From contig NZ_JASBQE010000020.1 in NCBI RefSeq assembly GCF_029960785.1, positions 1-64,000 on the forward strand: 64,000 bases of DNA. Direction: 5' to 3'. The position numbers and the translations under genes are program-made. The first letter of the stretch is position 1, and every line of letters begins with the position of its first letter. This DNA is from Polyangium sp. 15x6. Lineage in GTDB: Bacteria; Myxococcota_A; Polyangia; Polyangiales; Polyangiaceae. A model generated the notes under the pieces. It made no database searches. It was not told the origin of the DNA and saw nothing but the letters and a program-made list of their open reading frames with translations. Of the stretch, positions 27,261-34,004 are shown piece by piece.

Positions 27261-28151
27261 ATGAAGAAGTCGATCAAGCTCCTCATGGCGACGGCGATCG
27301 CCACGAGCGCACCCTTCCTGAGCATCGGCGACGCGTCGGCGGACGGCAACTACTACGACTACAACCCGCGCTTCGGTCAGGTCGACGCGCGCTTCCTCGA
27401 CAACGGCGACCTGCGGTTCGGGTTCGAGCAGATGAACATCCGCCGGCAGTCCGCCCGGTACTCGATCGACGCCGACCTCCAGGCGACGTACCGTTGCCAG
27501 GATCGGCGCGGAAACTTCGCGGGCGGGCCGATCGTCCTCCGCGACTCCTGGAACGACGCGAAGAGCTTCCAGGCCACCCGGCAGGGCCACGTCTACGGTG
27601 AGTTCCTCATGCCGCGAGATCGGTTCCGCGGCGCGGGCGCTTGCCGTGGCAGCTACCAGCAGCCGGTGCTCATGCGGGTCACGATCGTGAACGTGCGCCT
27701 GCTCGACGAGACGAACAACCTGCCGTACTCGCGCGAGCGCATCACGTGCGACGCGCGCGGCGACTACGGCTACGACGACGCGCAGTACGGGTACGGCCCG
27801 GGCAAGGGCGACCTCCAGTACGGGCCCGGCAAGGGCGACGCGTACTACGGCGACGACGGCCAGTACGGCCCCGGCAAGGGCGACGGCCAGTACGGCCCCG
27901 GCGGCGATCAATTCGACGTCGGCCCGGGCGACGCGCAGTACGGCGGCGACGTCCAGTACGGCCCGGGCAAGGGCGACGTTCAGTACGGCCCCGGCAAGGG
28001 CGACGTTCAGTACGGCCCCGGCAAGGGCGACGTCCAGTACGGCCCCAGCAAGGGCGACGTCCAGTACGGCGGCGACGACAGTCAGTACATCCCGAGCAAG
28101 GGCGACGCGCAGTACAGCGGCGGCAAGGGCGACATCAGCAAGTTCGACTGA
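27261..28151 (+). CDS. Secreted protein with a C-terminal KGD repeat tail
   Basis: 296 residues, ATG with a strong AAGGAGAGG ribosome-binding site. A Sec signal peptide (KKSIKLLMATAIATSAPFLS, cleavage about ASA-DG) is followed by a domain of about 130 residues with three cysteines (YRCQDRRGN, GACRGSYQQP, ITCDARG). The last about 125 residues repeat GPGKGDxQY with variants; KGD occurs nine times and QYGP or QYGG recurs. Gly/Tyr/Asp/Lys repeats suggest an extended, possibly adhesive or matrix-binding tail. No LPxTG or other anchor is seen. A strong terminator follows. Unknown family. Confidence 0.8.
   Translation: MKKSIKLLMATAIATSAPFLSIGDASADGNYYDYNPRFGQVDARFLDNGDLRFGFEQMNIRRQSARYSIDADLQATYRCQDRRGNFAGGPIVLRDSWNDAKSFQATRQGHVYGEFLMPRDRFRGAGACRGSYQQPVLMRVTIVNVRLLDETNNLPYSRERITCDARGDYGYDDAQYGYGPGKGDLQYGPGKGDAYYGDDGQYGPGKGDGQYGPGGDQFDVGPGDAQYGGDVQYGPGKGDVQYGPGKGDVQYGPGKGDVQYGPSKGDVQYGGDDSQYIPSKGDAQYSGGKGDISKFD
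27954..28061 (+). repeat. Four near-identical 27-bp tandem units inside the KGD-repeat gene
   Basis: Units start at 27954, 27981, 28008 and 28035 and begin CAGTACGGCC; each encodes QYGPGKGDV or QYGPSKGDV. They differ from each other at one to three positions only. More divergent copies lie before and after. The near identity suggests recent expansion by slippage or unequal crossing-over. Confidence 0.85.
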
Positions 28152-28230: not shown

Positions 28231-29406
28231 TCACCACGAGCCGTCGCGGAGCGGCTCGGCGCCGAAGAGCTCGGCGAGCACCTTGCGGTACTGATCGGCG
28301 AGCCGCACGAGGTCGTGGAAGACCGCGGCGATGTCGTGCTCGCTCGCGAACGCGGAGACGGGCTCGGAGAAGGAGAGCACGACGACGTCCCCCGCGAGCG
28401 AGAGGCGACACACGCCCGAGGTCTGATCGTTCGCCGTGAGCAAGAGCCGGTAGAACGGCTCGTGGTTCGCGGAAGGCACACGCACGAGTGGCACGCGCAA
28501 GATCACCTGCAAGCCCGCGCTGTCGAGGCGGATCGTCACCTCGGAAGGCGTCGCGTCTCCGCCGAGCGCGCGATGATGAATGCGCCACGACCGCGGCCCG
28601 GTGCGCGCCTTGTTCGCGACGATCCCGAGCGCGGTGAGCGCATCGCGCACCACGCGCTCGGCCCCGGCCGATTCGCTCTCGAACGCATGCGGCAGGAGGA
28701 TCCCGCACGACTCGCAGCGATCGTTGTCTGCAGAGAACGCCTCCGTGCAGGCGGGGCAGCGATGGATGAGGGTGCGCTCGCCGAGCTCCGACGCAGGCAC
28801 GTCGAGCGCGCGGAGGTCCCGCGAGAGGAGACCGACGGGGAGGATGCATCGACCACGATCGAGCGGATCCCTGCCGATGCGCCGCGCCGTCGTGATCACG
28901 CCGATCACGCGCCCGGCCGTGTCGATCACGGGAGAGCCGCCGCGCCCGGCGCGCGCGCCGAGATCCGGATCGAGCGCCGCGAACTCGCCGCCGCGCCCCT
29001 CGGCGCACACCACGGCCATCGCCGTCACGAGCGTGTCGCCGGGAGCCGCGATCAGCGTGGTGACGGGCTCGCCGAGCCGCGGCAACGGATCGGCGCGCAG
29101 CGGCAGCGGCGCCGCGCCGATCGCTTCGAGCGGGAGCACGAACGCGAGGTCCCGCTCCGCGTCCACGGCGACGACGCGCCCCGCCATGCGCCTGCCTTCC
29201 TCGGTCGAGAGCGTCACCTCGGCCTGGAAGCCCACGGTGCGCCAGCTCGTCACGACCACGCCGTTGCCGAGCGCGACCCAGCCCGTGCCGCTCGACGTCC
29301 CCGACGTCACCGTCACGACCGATCGCCGCGCGACGCCGAGCACGCTCTCCCCCGGGCCGCCGTGCTGCATGGAATCCAGGAGCGACGAGGCGATACGCGA
29401 GCTCAT
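28231..29406 (-). CDS. Trypsin-like pseudo-protease with zinc ribbon and YbjN-like domain
   Basis: 391 residues; the ATG at 29406 overlaps the upstream stop (ATGA). Residues about 20-200 have the trypsin/HtrA fold: SVVTVTSGTSSGTGWV, ERDLAFVLPL (Asp region) and AGRVIGVIT. The catalytic positions are lost. The TxxHV histidine motif reads TSWRTV, and GNSGGP reads GRGGSP, so the Ser position is Gly. A zinc ribbon CPACTEAFSADNDRCESC follows. The C-terminal about 140 residues have the layout of YbjN/type-III-chaperone-like domains (strand pairs then YRLLLTANDQ and a final helix). It probably acts as a scaffold or sensor in the cytoplasm rather than as a protease. Last gene of the four-gene operon. 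Confidence 0.75.
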   Translation of the reverse strand: MSSRIASSLLDSMQHGGPGESVLGVARRSVVTVTSGTSSGTGWVALGNGVVVTSWRTVGFQAEVTLSTEEGRRMAGRVVAVDAERDLAFVLPLEAIGAAPLPLRADPLPRLGEPVTTLIAAPGDTLVTAMAVVCAEGRGGEFAALDPDLGARAGRGGSPVIDTAGRVIGVITTARRIGRDPLDRGRCILPVGLLSRDLRALDVPASELGERTLIHRCPACTEAFSADNDRCESCGILLPHAFESESAGAERVVRDALTALGIVANKARTGPRSWRIHHRALGGDATPSEVTIRLDSAGLQVILRVPLVRVPSANHEPFYRLLLTANDQTSGVCRLSLAGDVVVLSFSEPVSAFASEHDIAAVFHDLVRLADQYRKVLAELFGAEPLRDGSW

Positions 29407-31172
29407 CCGGACGCGATCCTCTTCAGCGCCGTCATCATCAGATCGAGCGCCGCCTGCTTGGGCACGTCGCGAAGCGCGTGCGCCACGATTTCCTTCAAGC
29501 GTTGCGACGTCTGCGCCGGCAAGCGCGTCCGTGTGAGCAGCTCCGTCAGCGCGCCGAGCGCGAGGAAGTGGCGGAGCGTCGCGTCCTGCGGCGCGAGCTC
29601 GATCTCCTCGACGTACTTCGCCAGGTGCTCGCGCGCCTGCGCCGCCGTCGCGAGCGGCTCGACGATGAACGCCCGCTCCTTCGGGAGAAGCGCGCGCGCC
29701 GCGACGATCCGCTCCATCGCGAGCAGCGCCGGCTCGGCCATCGGGATCGGCGACGACGGGCGCTTGCCACCCGGCGACGCGCTCGGCCATATCGCCCGCG
29801 TCACGCCCGACGCGTTCCGGTAGAGGTACGAGACCGCGTCGGGCACGTGCTCGCCGAACTCGTAGATCGCGCGATACACCGCGGCGCGCACGAGCAGGAG
29901 CATCGTCGCGGGCCGCTCCTCGTAGCTCAGCGCCGTCGCGAGCGCCTGCGCCTGATGCAAGAGCTCGCAGAGTTTGTCCGCGGGCGTCAGCGCGCGACGC
30001 GCCGCAGCGTCGTCGAGATCCGGCGAGCCGGGGCGCGCCGGACCTTCGACCGCGGGCATCCCGGGCACCGTGCGCCGACGCGCGGCGGGCGCCGCGAACG
30101 GCATCGGCGTCGTGAGCGACGGGATCGCACCGAGGCGCGCGGTCTCCGGCGGCGGCTCGCGGTCGGGCGGAGACGGCGCGGCGAACGCGGACGTCTGCGG
30201 AACGCCGAGCCGCGCCGTCTGCGGCACGTTCTCGGGAGGCGCGAGCACCGGCGGCACGCCGTCCTCGCCGCGCCACGTATCGGAGAGGCGGAACGGCGCG
30301 AGCACCGGCGGCAGCTCCTCCTCCGCGGCGGGCCCCCGCGCCCCATCGTTCGCAAAGGCGGGCGCGAGGATCGGCGGCAGATCGTCGTCCGGCGGCGTCG
30401 CGTTGTCCGCGGGCCGGAGCGTCGAGGGCGGCGGCGGCACGACCGATCGTCGCTGCGGCGCCGGCTGCAGCGTCGAGAGCGTCCGCTTCCTCCCGAGCGA
30501 CTCCCACCCGCCGCCTCCGCGCGCATCTCCATGCGCCGCGGTGCGCGCGTCGAACGACGCCACGAAGATCTCCGCGTACCGCTCCGACGTCGCCATCATC
30601 TCGCGGATCACGTGCCGCACGAGCGGCGGTGACGCGGCGCCGAGCTGCGTGACGAAGCGCAGAAGGAGCAGATCGTCCCTGAGGCACACGCGTGACGTGA
30701 TCGCCTCCTCGTCGCAGAGCTCGAGCGAGAGCCGCATCGCGGGGACACGCTGGCTGCGCGGCAGACGCGCCACGGGCGACTCCACGATGAGATGCATCGA
30801 CTGCATGTCGAGCGACAGGAACACGCTCGACTCCTTGCCGATGAGCGCCCAGCCTGGCCCCTCGGGCAGGTTCACCGCGCGCGCCGTCAGGTTCGACTCG
30901 GCGGAGGCGACGATGCCGAGCGCGCGCGCGTACTCACCACGCCGGAACGCCTCCGTCGCCCGCTCCAGCCCGAAAGGATCGAGCGACGCGTGCCCGCGCG
31001 GCACGAACCTTCGCATCGAGTCTTCGAGCGCCAGCGGCGCGCGGTACTCCCCGCAGGCGTCGCAGCGTGGCCCGTGGACGGGCCATCCGCACACCGTGCA
31101 GAACTCCCGGGCCGTTCGGCTCGCGGCTCCCACCGCGCAGAGGATAAAGCGAACGCGGCCCGCCGCGGGCAC
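29403..31172 (-). CDS. Zinc-ribbon/YbjN-like protein with a proline-rich central region
   Basis: 589 residues from the GTG at 31172; a GTG at 31133 is an alternative. A zinc ribbon lies at the N-terminus (CTVCGWPVHGPRCDACG). Residues about 70-210 form a YbjN-like domain resembling the one in the next gene. A long disordered region carries three spaced motifs, LPPILAP, LPPVLAP and VPPVLAP, which look like docking peptides. The C-terminal about 200 residues are helical. No catalytic site is visible. Cytoplasmic. It lies between the PDZ-NuoH gene and the pseudo-protease gene and overlaps the latter by 4 bp, so the two are likely to act together. Confidence 0.7.
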   Translation of the reverse strand: MPAAGRVRFILCAVGAASRTAREFCTVCGWPVHGPRCDACGEYRAPLALEDSMRRFVPRGHASLDPFGLERATEAFRRGEYARALGIVASAESNLTARAVNLPEGPGWALIGKESSVFLSLDMQSMHLIVESPVARLPRSQRVPAMRLSLELCDEEAITSRVCLRDDLLLLRFVTQLGAASPPLVRHVIREMMATSERYAEIFVASFDARTAAHGDARGGGGWESLGRKRTLSTLQPAPQRRSVVPPPPSTLRPADNATPPDDDLPPILAPAFANDGARGPAAEEELPPVLAPFRLSDTWRGEDGVPPVLAPPENVPQTARLGVPQTSAFAAPSPPDREPPPETARLGAIPSLTTPMPFAAPAARRRTVPGMPAVEGPARPGSPDLDDAAARRALTPADKLCELLHQAQALATALSYEERPATMLLLVRAAVYRAIYEFGEHVPDAVSYLYRNASGVTRAIWPSASPGGKRPSSPIPMAEPALLAMERIVAARALLPKERAFIVEPLATAAQAREHLAKYVEEIELAPQDATLRHFLALGALTELLTRTRLPAQTSQRLKEIVAHALRDVPKQAALDLMMTALKRIASG

Positions 31173-31223: not shown

Positions 31224-33182
31224 TCAGATCAGGGGGTTCAGGTGCAGCGGGGTCCGCGTTTCTCGCAGGTCCACCTGAATCCGGCGCACGAAATGCGCAG
31301 CGAAGGCGGCCCAGGTCACGAACGTGACCACCCCGCTCACGAGCCCCGCGTTCCGGCCGAAGCTGATCACCGTCGTCGCGAGGGCGCCGAGCAGAACGAA
31401 CGCCGAGGCCACGATCGCGAGCGGCAAGAACCAACGAAGCGCGATCCGCGACCGCTCCTCCGCGCAGAGCCGCGGCAGCGCCCAGCGCAGCCACACCACC
31501 GTCAGCACGAGTCCCCAGCTCTTCATCAAGAAAAGCAGCGCGCCCACGATCTTCAGCGCGCCCGCGCTCTCCTGCGTCGCGCCTGCCACGCCCGGCAGCT
31601 GCCAGCCGCCGAGGAAGATCGCGCTCGCGATCCCGCAGGCCACGAACACGTGCGCCCACTCCCCGAAGTAGAACAGAAGCTGCCGCGCGCCGACCTTCGC
31701 GGGTGGCGCGAGCTCCTCCCCGCTCGCCTCCGCCTCCCGCAGCGCGCCCGACGCGCGCCCGTCGGCCGTGATCATCGACGTCACGTACGCGAGGAACAGC
31801 ACGAACGTCGCCGGGTTCCGGAACACGAACCAGTGCCAGGGCCACCCGCCCGCGTCGAGCGGCGATCCACCCTGCCCGCCCTGCGCCGCCACGATGTCCT
31901 CGAGCCGGAGCGACCCCGTGCTCGACACGACGCACACGATCGCCACCACGGCGGGCAGCTCCTGCAGCAGCACCCGTCCTGCGCCGCGCAGACCTCGCAG
32001 CACGGACCAGCGCTCCGCCGCGAGCGACCCACCCGTCACGAACCCGAGCCCGAGCAGCGCCACGAGCGCGAGCAGAAACAGCATCCCGACATCGAGGTCC
32101 GCGCCCACGAGCCTCTGCGAGAACGGCATCACCACGAACGTCGCAGAGATCGCGGCGAACGCGAGCACCGGCGCGAGCTTCGACAGGATCGGATCCGCGT
32201 CCGGCGGCGCGATCGCCGAGGCCACCTCGCGATGCACCTCCGCCGCGAGCCGCGCGACCGGCGAGCGCGCGAGCGCCTTCTTCCCGCTCCGCTGCCCTGC
32301 GAGCCGCGACGCCACGCGCCGCACGAGCCACGCCACGAGCGCCCCGAGCGGCGTCGCGAACACGAGCAGCGTCGCCGCGGACAAACCCAGCACGATCGCC
32401 GCGCCGAGCAGATCCGAAGGCGCGCTCGCGTGGAACCCCTCGATCGAGATTGGAACGATCCGCGGCTCCGCCGCGCCGCGCCGCACCGCGACGAGCGGCG
32501 CGCGCTCCTCGCCGCTCGGGATCACGTCGGCCACGCTCGTCACCTTCACGCCCTCGAAGCTCGTGATCACGTCGCCGCCCTCGATCCGCGCCGCGGCCGC
32601 GGGGCTGTCCGGACGAACCGCCGCCACCACGAGCCCGTTCGACGTGGGTGCGTCCGGAGAAACCGTGATCCCCAGGAAATCGAGCGCCCGCTGCCCGTCG
32701 CGCTCCCGCGCCAGCGCGATCGCGCGCCGCGGCGCCTTCGGCCGCACGTCGATCGTCACCTCCTTGACCGAGCCCGTCACCGGCAACGCGCCCTCGGCCT
32801 TCGTCTCCAGCGTGACCGTCACGTCACCGTGGAACGTCGTGTGCGCCGACTCATCGCCCTGCCCGCAGAACCGCGCCACGAGCGCCTCGCTCACTGCGGC
32901 GCTCACCTTGTCGGTCGAGATCCTCGCCTTGTCGACGACGATCGTCTGCCCTTCGATCGGCGCTTCTCCGGGCCGCTTCAGCGTCCCGCGGAACGTGATC
33001 GTCGCCTCGCGCGCCTCTCCTGTCGGCAGGTTCGTCCCGAGCACCTCCAGCCGATCGCCCGACTCGAGCTCGCGCGGCGCTACGTCGACCACCCGCAGGA
33101 GATCGGGCGCGCTGTCGTTCACGTTACAGCCGCTCGCCAGGAGGCAGGCGAGGGCGAGCGTGATCCTTCGATGTCCGGGCAT
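31224..33182 (-). CDS. Lipoprotein-PDZ-NuoH chimera
   Basis: 652 residues. A signal ends in a lipobox (CLLASGC). Residues about 28-150 form an IPT-like beta domain, and about 165-250 a PDZ domain (FLGITVSPDAP, GLVVAAVRPDSPAAAARI, GGDVITSFEG). From about 265 to the end it aligns with complex I subunit NuoH: LSKLAPVLAF, VGADLDVGMLFLLALVALLG, GSLRLEDIVAAQ, an EAEASGEEL region, FGEWAHVFVA, FLGGWQLPG and WLRWALPRL. The acidic residues of the NuoH quinone/loop region are mostly kept, but the GERRxxGxxQxRxGPN motif is not. The start lies 9 bp after the ABC ATPase stop. No other nuo genes are nearby. Confidence 0.85.
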   Translation of the reverse strand: MPGHRRITLALACLLASGCNVNDSAPDLLRVVDVAPRELESGDRLEVLGTNLPTGEAREATITFRGTLKRPGEAPIEGQTIVVDKARISTDKVSAAVSEALVARFCGQGDESAHTTFHGDVTVTLETKAEGALPVTGSVKEVTIDVRPKAPRRAIALARERDGQRALDFLGITVSPDAPTSNGLVVAAVRPDSPAAAARIEGGDVITSFEGVKVTSVADVIPSGEERAPLVAVRRGAAEPRIVPISIEGFHASAPSDLLGAAIVLGLSAATLLVFATPLGALVAWLVRRVASRLAGQRSGKKALARSPVARLAAEVHREVASAIAPPDADPILSKLAPVLAFAAISATFVVMPFSQRLVGADLDVGMLFLLALVALLGLGFVTGGSLAAERWSVLRGLRGAGRVLLQELPAVVAIVCVVSSTGSLRLEDIVAAQGGQGGSPLDAGGWPWHWFVFRNPATFVLFLAYVTSMITADGRASGALREAEASGEELAPPAKVGARQLLFYFGEWAHVFVACGIASAIFLGGWQLPGVAGATQESAGALKIVGALLFLMKSWGLVLTVVWLRWALPRLCAEERSRIALRWFLPLAIVASAFVLLGALATTVISFGRNAGLVSGVVTFVTWAAFAAHFVRRIQVDLRETRTPLHLNPLI

Positions 33183-33191
33183 GACCCGGGC

Positions 33192-34004
33192 TTATCCATC
33201 GCGCCGCGGCAAAGGGCCAAGTTGAGGGCGAACCGGCAGGAAATACCGGGCGTTGTCGAGCTCGTTCACCCCCACGAAGAGCTCCACCTCGAACACCTCC
33301 TTGAGCCGCCGGTACGTCATCACCTCCTCGATCGTCCCGTGCGCCACGAGCCTCCCCGCCTTCAAGAGCGCGATCCGATCCGCGTACTGCGCCGCCGCGT
33401 TCAGATCGTGCAGCACCATCAGGCATGCGAGCCCTCGATCGCGCACCTCGCGCCACACGAGCTCCGACAGCGCGAGGAAGTGCCGCACGTCGAGGTGCGC
33501 CGTCGCCTCGTCGAGCAAGAGCACCGGCGCCTCCTGCGCGAGCGCCCGCGCGATCGCGACCCTCTGCTGCTCGCCGCCCGACAGCTCCGAAACGCGCCGA
33601 TCCGCGAGCGCTTCGAGCTCGCACACGGCGATCGCCCTCTCCACCGCCTCTTCATCGTGCTTCGACGCGCGCATCCACGCGCCCTGGTACGGCGCGCGCC
33701 CCATCATCACGATCTCACGCACTGAAAAGCCCACCGCAGGCTCCGACGACTGCGGCACGAGCGCGATCCTCTTCGCGATCTCCCGACGCTCCATCCGCGC
33801 GAGCGGCTCGCCGAGGACCTGTACCTCGCCACGCTGGGGCTGGAGCGCGCCCGAGATCACTTTCACGAGCGTCGACTTTCCGGCCCCGTTCGGCCCGAGG
33901 ACCGCGCAAATCTCGCCTTTCCGCACGGAAAGGTCGACGTTCTCGAGCGCCACGCCTCCTGCCGCGTAGCGAACCGAGACCCCGGATAGTTCGATGGCAT
34001 TCAT
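33192..34004 (-). CDS. ABC transporter ATP-binding protein, iron-siderophore/haem/cobalamin type
   Basis: 270 residues. Walker A GPNGAGKST, Q-loop ALVPQSSEPAVGF, signature LSGGEQQRVAIARAL, Walker B VLLLDEATAHLD and switch His (MVLHDLNAAAQYAD) are complete. The LALVPQS start and the R-rich region after the Q-loop match the FecE/HmuV/BtuD subfamily. No permease or binding protein gene is adjacent, so it may serve distant partners or the membrane protein encoded next. It is the first gene of a four-gene leftward operon, divergent from the PhaR-like gene with about 100 bp between starts. Confidence 0.9.
   Translation of the reverse strand: MNAIELSGVSVRYAAGGVALENVDLSVRKGEICAVLGPNGAGKSTLVKVISGALQPQRGEVQVLGEPLARMERREIAKRIALVPQSSEPAVGFSVREIVMMGRAPYQGAWMRASKHDEEAVERAIAVCELEALADRRVSELSGGEQQRVAIARALAQEAPVLLLDEATAHLDVRHFLALSELVWREVRDRGLACLMVLHDLNAAAQYADRIALLKAGRLVAHGTIEEVMTYRRLKEVFEVELFVGVNELDNARYFLPVRPQLGPLPRRDG

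Follow-up and report, generated by a model that had tools for sequence, protein, structure and literature searches.

The closest described relatives of the protein considered here are the complex I subunits NuoH, ND1 and NdhA (Pfam PF00146, NADHdh). The protein, termed H', is encoded in a 64,000-nucleotide stretch of Polyangium sp. 15x6 (contig NZ_JASBQE010000020.1, positions 1 to 64,000; hereafter the window) and resembles these subunits over the whole of their domain, but differs from them in bearing an N-terminal lipoprotein part, a beta-sandwich, a PDZ domain and an extra C-terminal helix with a tail, and in lacking the quinone and peripheral-arm motifs. The DegP/DegS/HtrA proteins have the HtrA type of PDZ in common with H', which lacks their protease domain. 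Mrp antiporters and DAB inorganic-carbon systems are likewise complex I-related membrane proteins without NuoB or NuoD; to our knowledge, neither includes a NuoH-like protein. Complex I-like enzymes of the 11-subunit type, for example in Desulfitobacterium, are described in PMC11238625. Two relatives of Polyangium (genomes G136 and G140) are alike in having A'–D' and H'–N' (primes mark the subunits of this second complex) and no E, F or G at those loci; unlike the described enzymes, the relatives' subunits lie at three loci, and three of them have extra domains. By ancestry, H' almost certainly goes back to a second, ancient complex I of Polyangiales, of which it was the NuoH subunit. The reading that we favour, with a probability of about 0.68, is that in Polyangium it belongs to a redox-dead and probably pump-dead remnant of the membrane arm, retained as a scaffold on which periplasmic domains are mounted; that redox chemistry and pumping have been lost from this remnant is highly probable, and the chance that H' and its partner L'M' (a NuoL–NuoM-type fusion) act as a scaffold is about even.

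Domain architecture and decay of H'

H' is a single open reading frame (31224..33182, minus strand; 652 residues) with an ATG start and no internal stop codon, joining a lipoprotein part, a beta-sandwich, a PDZ domain and a decayed NuoH domain. A previous interpretation of this DNA from its letters (the sequence-only reading) had taken the C-terminal half to follow NuoH, and this was borne out: residues 270–595 (31398..32375, minus strand) match NADHdh at 140.5–142.7 bits (Pfam cut-off 27), and at 140.5 bits the match runs from position 4 to 296 of the 298 in the profile, which is essentially its full length. The best NCBIfam NuoH model gives 108.8 bits, below the equivalog cut-offs (305 or more), and the closest solved chains by sequence are those of chloroplast NAD(P)H-quinone oxidoreductase subunit 1 (NdhA). 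In AlphaFold models built from an eight-row alignment, the membrane half has low confidence from residue 251 onward (pLDDT ~27–53), as does that of Sorangium H' (eight rows). Since AlphaFold gave no reliable model of this half, its fold rests on sequence homology, by which its relationship to NuoH is certain; nothing pointed to a different fold. Past the NuoH domain lies an extra hydrophobic helix with a tail ending in HLNPLI (31227..31346, minus strand), and the terminal pattern [NSD]P[FWLYH][LIV]-end recurs in 41 of 50 H' rows.

The N-terminal half had been read as an exported PDZ lipoprotein, and this also holds. A signal peptide and lipobox extend to C19 (33126..33182, minus strand), G18 and C19 being invariant in eight aligned rows, and a PROSITE-like lipobox pattern lies near the N-terminus in 44 of the 50 rows, for which we picked the start codons, the window protein among them. 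H' thus has the sequence hallmarks of a bacterial lipoprotein, and lipidation is predicted. The PDZ domain, of DegP/DegQ type (residues ~165–245; 32448..32690, minus strand), scores 34.7 bits with PDZ_2 (cut-off 27; residues 170–222) and contains a GLVV stretch resembling what we take to be the ligand loop of HtrA-type domains. Between the two lies a sandwich of immunoglobulin (Ig)/IPT-like appearance (residues 20–150; 32733..33125, minus strand). The suggestion of an IPT-like domain is plausible from the AlphaFold model, whose strands at residues 30–146 form a beta-sandwich of ~120 residues (pLDDT ~66–87), but Pfam and profile searches gave it no confirmation. Among the best 50 Foldseek rows for the window model, all matches are to antibodies (Ig-fold, Fab-type) or to DegP/DegQ; the latter reach probabilities of 0.99–1.0, yet their TM-score across the entire model is low, as it is for the Ig-fold matches.

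How much of NuoH is left in this half was measured at 67 reference positions, which do not vary among eight NuoH proteins without the fusion (that of E. coli and, from Polyangiales, three canonical ones and four of another type). Fusion proteins scoring 369–385 bits with NADHdh, the level of ordinary NuoH, occur in 12 of 144 genomes scanned (G140, G136, G143, G086, G133, G114, G072, G109, G092, G108, G074 and G066). Together with Sorangium cellulosum So0157-2 and Minicystis rosea these give 14 intact rows among the 50 compared, and they keep 58–61 of the 67 residues, against 26 in the window protein and 12–43 in the 35 other rows. The intact rows bear motifs such as WVERR...QSRIGPNR and FDLPEAESELVAGY. 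In the window H', by alignment, the GERR...NRYGPN quinone motif is lost as had been stated (E36 is replaced by valine; R37 is kept), and the residues replaced are Q44, R46, G48, P49, D63, K66, E71, D72, D213, E220 and E228 (E. coli numbering). We take Q44, R46, G48, P49, K66, E71, D72, D213 and E228 to line the quinone cavity or to face NuoB/NuoD; the window protein lacks the quinone-cavity and NuoB/NuoD-interface residues expected of a functional NuoH. Because the orthologous fusions elsewhere look like complete NuoH subunits, Polyangium H' is best seen as a decayed descendant of such a subunit. The idea that it had borrowed the NuoH fold was discarded once these intact orthologues, in Sorangium-type genera and belonging to a second complex I, had been found.

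A second complex I in relatives and its remnant in Polyangium

Gene content assigns intact H' to a predicted second complex I of the 11-subunit type, scattered across three loci. A'B'C'D' are clustered in nine genomes examined (G133, G074, G066, G072, G136, G140, G108, G143 and G109), L'M'N' lie together in eight (G133, G108, G074, G092, G072, G136, G066 and G140), and in G136 and G140 these are preceded by I'J'K'; the latter two genomes contain all of the A, B, C, D and H–N genes. The A'–D' and I'–N' loci examined, to which the search was confined, showed no E, F or G. With D' of G133 as the query against 47 genomes, a copy at 71–100% identity was found in 10 of the 12 genomes with intact H' (the query genome included), and a second NuoD of the D' type in none of the 35 with decayed H', where the best identity was 46% (Fisher p = 1.3e-8, kinship ignored). 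G092 and G114 (loci L048, L051 and L146) have intact H' at 376–378 bits, with L'M'N' in G092, and D' was not found in them; they may be at an early step of decay, or D' may have been missed in assembly. G133 also contains a partial second D' (C2:1003334-1003624), comprising the last 97 residues at 98% identity, ~2.2 kb downstream of the intact copy.

The genome that carries the window (G000) has a canonical complex I, with A–D, G, H and I on contig C11 and E, F and J–N on C39. Its only NuoD is the canonical one, 46% identical to D', and H' has no NuoD of its own type. Within the window, a search with 13 E. coli Nuo proteins gave NuoH as the sole convincing match (9e-13), followed by NuoI (0.039), NuoG (0.58) and weaker ones, in agreement with the statement that no complex I gene is near. 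All 11 NuoL/M/N-type matches of G000 could be placed: three on C39, four on C209, two on C17 and two on C218; N' was not found among them. The C218 matches form L'M', a single frame of 1279 residues (G000:C218:79066-82905), so complex I-derived partner genes exist in this genome, unlinked to H'. Of the second-complex genes, H', L' and M' alone were found. The C17 pair is presumably an Mrp-like cluster, and C209:173521-184131, with a 1311-residue DabA-like protein and four NuoL/M-type matches, presumably a DAB-like one; both are separate from L'M', which differs from Mrp and DAB systems in lacking the channel residues. The canonical NuoH (G000:C11:68744-70252; L041:12517-14286, minus strand) is intact at 310 bits on NADHdh. 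Its 589 residues include an insert with a helix close to the N-terminus and a 36-residue loop (DGNKNGTLDFSD) that looks like an EF-hand (Pfam E 0.094, under the cut-off).

None of ten NuoL/M positions tested in L'M' retains its residue. In M', E144, K234, K265 and E407 have become L, R, S and P; in L', E144, D178 and K229 have become A, G and T, K342 has become R, and H254 and K399 fall in gaps. The glutamate of transmembrane helix (TM) 5, the lysines of TM7 and TM8 and the Glu/Lys of TM12 that mark proton-translocating antiporter-like subunits are accordingly not retained. All four NuoM residues are kept in each of nine intact lineages examined, against none of 18 other rows, the Polyangium protein included; according to PMC8357420, mutation of E144 in M inactivates E. 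coli complex I. The energy-coupling role proposed in the sequence-only reading is made unlikely by these losses of channel residues in L'M', together with those of quinone-site residues in H'. A truncated NuoB-like frame on C240 (L215:5920-6639) was considered as a leftover of B' and rejected, because its identity to the genome's canonical NuoB, 58% over 149 residues, exceeds the 36–42% that it shares with B' from four genomes. A further NuoB-type match, on C173, adjoins a gene that to us looks like a NiFe-hydrogenase large subunit.

Distribution, selection and repeated decay

Full-length H' is present in all five other sampled Polyangium genomes at 90–96% identity, among them G098, an assembly of two contigs, and the fusion, searched for across Polyangiales, was found in several families of the order. 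With the H' query, 138 of 144 genomes of the order give a match at E ≤ 0.001, ordinary NuoH counted in. A model of the N-terminal half (242 positions, alignment A2) matches 122 of 377 genomes of the phylum at 1e-6; among the matches listed, those spanning at least 190 positions belong to Polyangiales with one exception (G446, same class, 2.4e-12), and the others outside the order span mostly the PDZ part. In three distant proteins (L076, L077 and L080) the NuoH profile has no match at E 0.1 and the PDZ domain still matches. Comparing G000 with the other five Polyangium genomes gives a dN/dS of 0.13–0.29 for the whole of H', 0.13–0.34 for residues 1–260 and 0.12–0.26 for residues 261–652, which shows both halves to be under purifying selection; values for L'M' within Polyangium (0.27–0.35) indicate weaker constraint. 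An artefactual joining of two genes near residue 260, which had been named as a risk, is ruled out by the same architecture in six Polyangium genomes and several families, in independent assemblies.

The two halves of H' have diverged at different rates. Among intact genera (G133 versus Minicystis, G108 and G136), the NuoH domain is 79–86% identical and the N-terminal half 47–60%, whereas between Polyangium and G133, Minicystis or G108 the values are 43–46% and 50–55%; within Polyangium (G000 versus G088) both are 90%. The decayed protein of G130 shares 59% (NuoH domain) and 57% (N-terminal half) with that of G133. L' behaves similarly, its membrane part and insert being 71–84% and 27–46% identical in intact pairs (G133 with G108, G074 and G136), versus 35–36% and 41–53% between Polyangium and G133, G108 or G074. 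For the membrane part of M' the values are 71–82% in intact pairs and 43–45% between Polyangium and intact genera, versus 40–54% and 45–50% for its N-terminal domain. The pattern indicates a burst of change in the coupling part followed, in H', by renewed constraint, with extra domains that at no point evolved faster than in intact lineages.

Decay appears to have taken place more than once. In a 48-row tree built from the N-terminal half (G134 and G110 having been removed beforehand from the 50), Polyangium belongs to a starred group (100/97) of 13 rows, six of them intact, and the decayed G130 groups with Sorangium (87/85, unstarred). The intact or decayed state changes five times on this tree, and the starred branches force at least three changes. 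Monophyly of the 14 intact rows is rejected (approximately unbiased test, p = 0.00027), also when Polyangium is added to them (p = 0.0033). In a tree of the membrane domain the decayed rows fall together on long branches; because decay itself creates such attraction, losses were counted on the N-terminal tree instead.

L' and M' also carry extra domains, as seen by comparison with E. coli in four intact genomes and the Polyangium protein. L' has a soluble insert of 139–195 residues past residue 193, and M' an N-terminal domain of 124–192 residues with a hydrophobic, signal-like stretch in four of five rows; we read the former as PEGA-like and the latter as Ig-like. The N-termini of NuoH, L and M lie on the periplasmic side of the membrane, so the PDZ lipoprotein and the two other extras are each expected in the periplasm. 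By the positive-inside rule, its RR-rich flank should place the tail of H' in the cytoplasm.

Possible roles of the remnant and its neighbourhood

As reconstructed from relatives, the ancestral complex comprised A–D and H–N, with lipoprotein, beta-sandwich and PDZ on H', the PEGA-like domain on L' and the Ig-like domain on M'. In Polyangium its redox and quinone parts have been lost, neither a second NuoD nor N' having been found, and H' and the fused L'M' remain, under purifying selection. These two could assemble in the inner membrane as a 'pseudo-complex I', in which the NuoH helices would fix the position and orientation of the PDZ lipoprotein domain on the periplasmic side, the PDZ domain would bind C-terminal peptides of periplasmic clients, the conserved cytoplasmic tail of H' would dock an inner partner, and the membrane helices would pass on position or tension rather than protons. 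This suggests a pump turned into a scaffold in a soil bacterium. Whether complex I has been converted, repeatedly and independently, into such a redox-dead and pump-dead scaffold displaying PDZ, PEGA-like and Ig-like domains, from an ancestor with a periplasmic crown that Sorangium and Minicystis relatives still encode intact, we judge to be evenly balanced. If so, the functions of complex I have been separated several times in a natural experiment: the Sorangium-type enzyme, still intact, can be matched with the decayed Polyangium module, in which coupling residues were removed and exported domains retained. Such a pair lets one ask which functions the periplasmic side of complex I can serve once redox chemistry is gone, and what is sensed by a PDZ lipoprotein at a membrane that couples energy. 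Among the open-access PMC papers listed, we found none on a complex I whose H, L and M subunits bear exported globular domains, on a selectively maintained, loss-of-function descendant of its membrane arm, on NuoH with PDZ in myxobacteria or on NuoH of Sorangium cellulosum complex I; since the search covered open-access PMC papers only, this absence is weak evidence. The main text of PMC4859585, which deals with isozymes of complex I, contains neither 'myxo' nor 'Sorangium'.

Several observations weigh against this reading. H' keeps the mid-membrane E157 and the acidic E216, E218 and E241, so some proton-path residues survive, and K234 of M' and K342 of L' have become arginine, preserving the basic charge. 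Extra segments are not unique to L' and M', since in G000 the canonical NuoL also has an insert, of 53 residues, where that of L' lies, and the canonical NuoM an N-terminal extension of 67 residues, though both are shorter; Pfam gave no PEGA match, and Ig-like matches to M' only below threshold. The D' search found none in two of the 12 intact-H' genomes (G092 and G114), and the independent pairs relating the state of H' to D' number two on starred branches and four when all branches are used, which is not enough for significance. The direction from intact to decayed presumes that lost residues are never regained. A partnership of H' with L'M' is not obligatory, since at several loci neither L' nor M' adjoins H' and, among the matches listed, many decayed-H' genomes have no M' bearing the extra domain. 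Contact between H' and L'M' and peptide binding by the PDZ domain are themselves things that we infer.

Other explanations fit the data less well. Under some condition H' might take the place of the usual NuoH in the canonical complex I (C11/C39) and add a periplasmic PDZ sensor: the genome has a single NuoD, which any NuoH paralogue would have to use, and the four acidic residues are kept. That is quite unlikely, however, given the loss of the nine quinone-cavity and NuoB/NuoD-facing residues, an intact canonical NuoH and the company of its own D' that intact H' keeps in 10 of 12 genomes. That H' and L'M' are a stand-alone channel or antiporter working on an ion gradient, like parts of Mrp and close to the earlier energy-coupling idea, would be in keeping with their homology to NuoH, L and M, with the same acidic residues and with two arginines that could still carry charge; without NuoM E144, K265 and E407 and NuoL E144, D178, K229 and K399, and with what we take to be an Mrp cluster elsewhere (C17), this is improbable.

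The gene upstream raises another option. An orphan FecE/HmuV-like ATP-binding cassette (ABC) ATPase (33192..34004, minus strand; ABC_tran 128 bits) ends 9 bp from H', the two are neighbours in 20 of 46 loci searched, and no permease was seen among the neighbouring genes run against Pfam, as would suit H' being a NuoH-derived permease or mechanotransmitter for it. However, the ATPase also adjoins H' of intact NuoH type (L037–L039, L042–L045, L047–L049 and L051–L053), and 26 of the 46 loci, some close to the end of a contig, showed no such ATPase next to H', which makes this role improbable. Most canonical NuoH residues are gone, as in a dying pseudogene or two genes joined in assembly, but with the same frame in six Polyangium assemblies, dN/dS of 0.13–0.29 with no slackening in the NuoH half, and the fusion in several families, this has very little to recommend it.

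Downstream of H', at a distance of 51 bp, lies a gene for a 589-residue protein with a weak zinc-ribbon match (29403..31172, minus strand; DZR E 0.024, under the cut-off), followed by one for a 391-residue trypsin-like domain protein with a zinc-ribbon-like part (28231..29406, minus strand; Trypsin_2 53 bits), each found in 11 of 46 loci. The order ABC ATPase, H', zinc-ribbon, trypsin-like is common to Polyangium, Sorangium, Minicystis, G074, G108 and G130 (11 of 46 loci, in which L037 and L042 are one place). Because intact and decayed genera have this cluster in common, gene order agrees with the N-terminal tree on repeated decay. An obligatory partnership with the ABC ATPase is unsupported, the neighbour being different outside these core genera; in other lineages L' and/or M' follow H' (seven loci). 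Nearby in the window, 27261-28151 (plus strand) encodes a protein of 296 residues whose glycine/tyrosine-rich repeat contains seven GKGD motifs; it has no Pfam match and an N-terminus that we read as signal-like. An acyltransferase-like gene (cluster c9, eight loci), presumably resembling 1-acylglycerol-phosphate acyltransferase, lies within five genes of H' at L055, L058, L060, L061, L063, L064 and L069.

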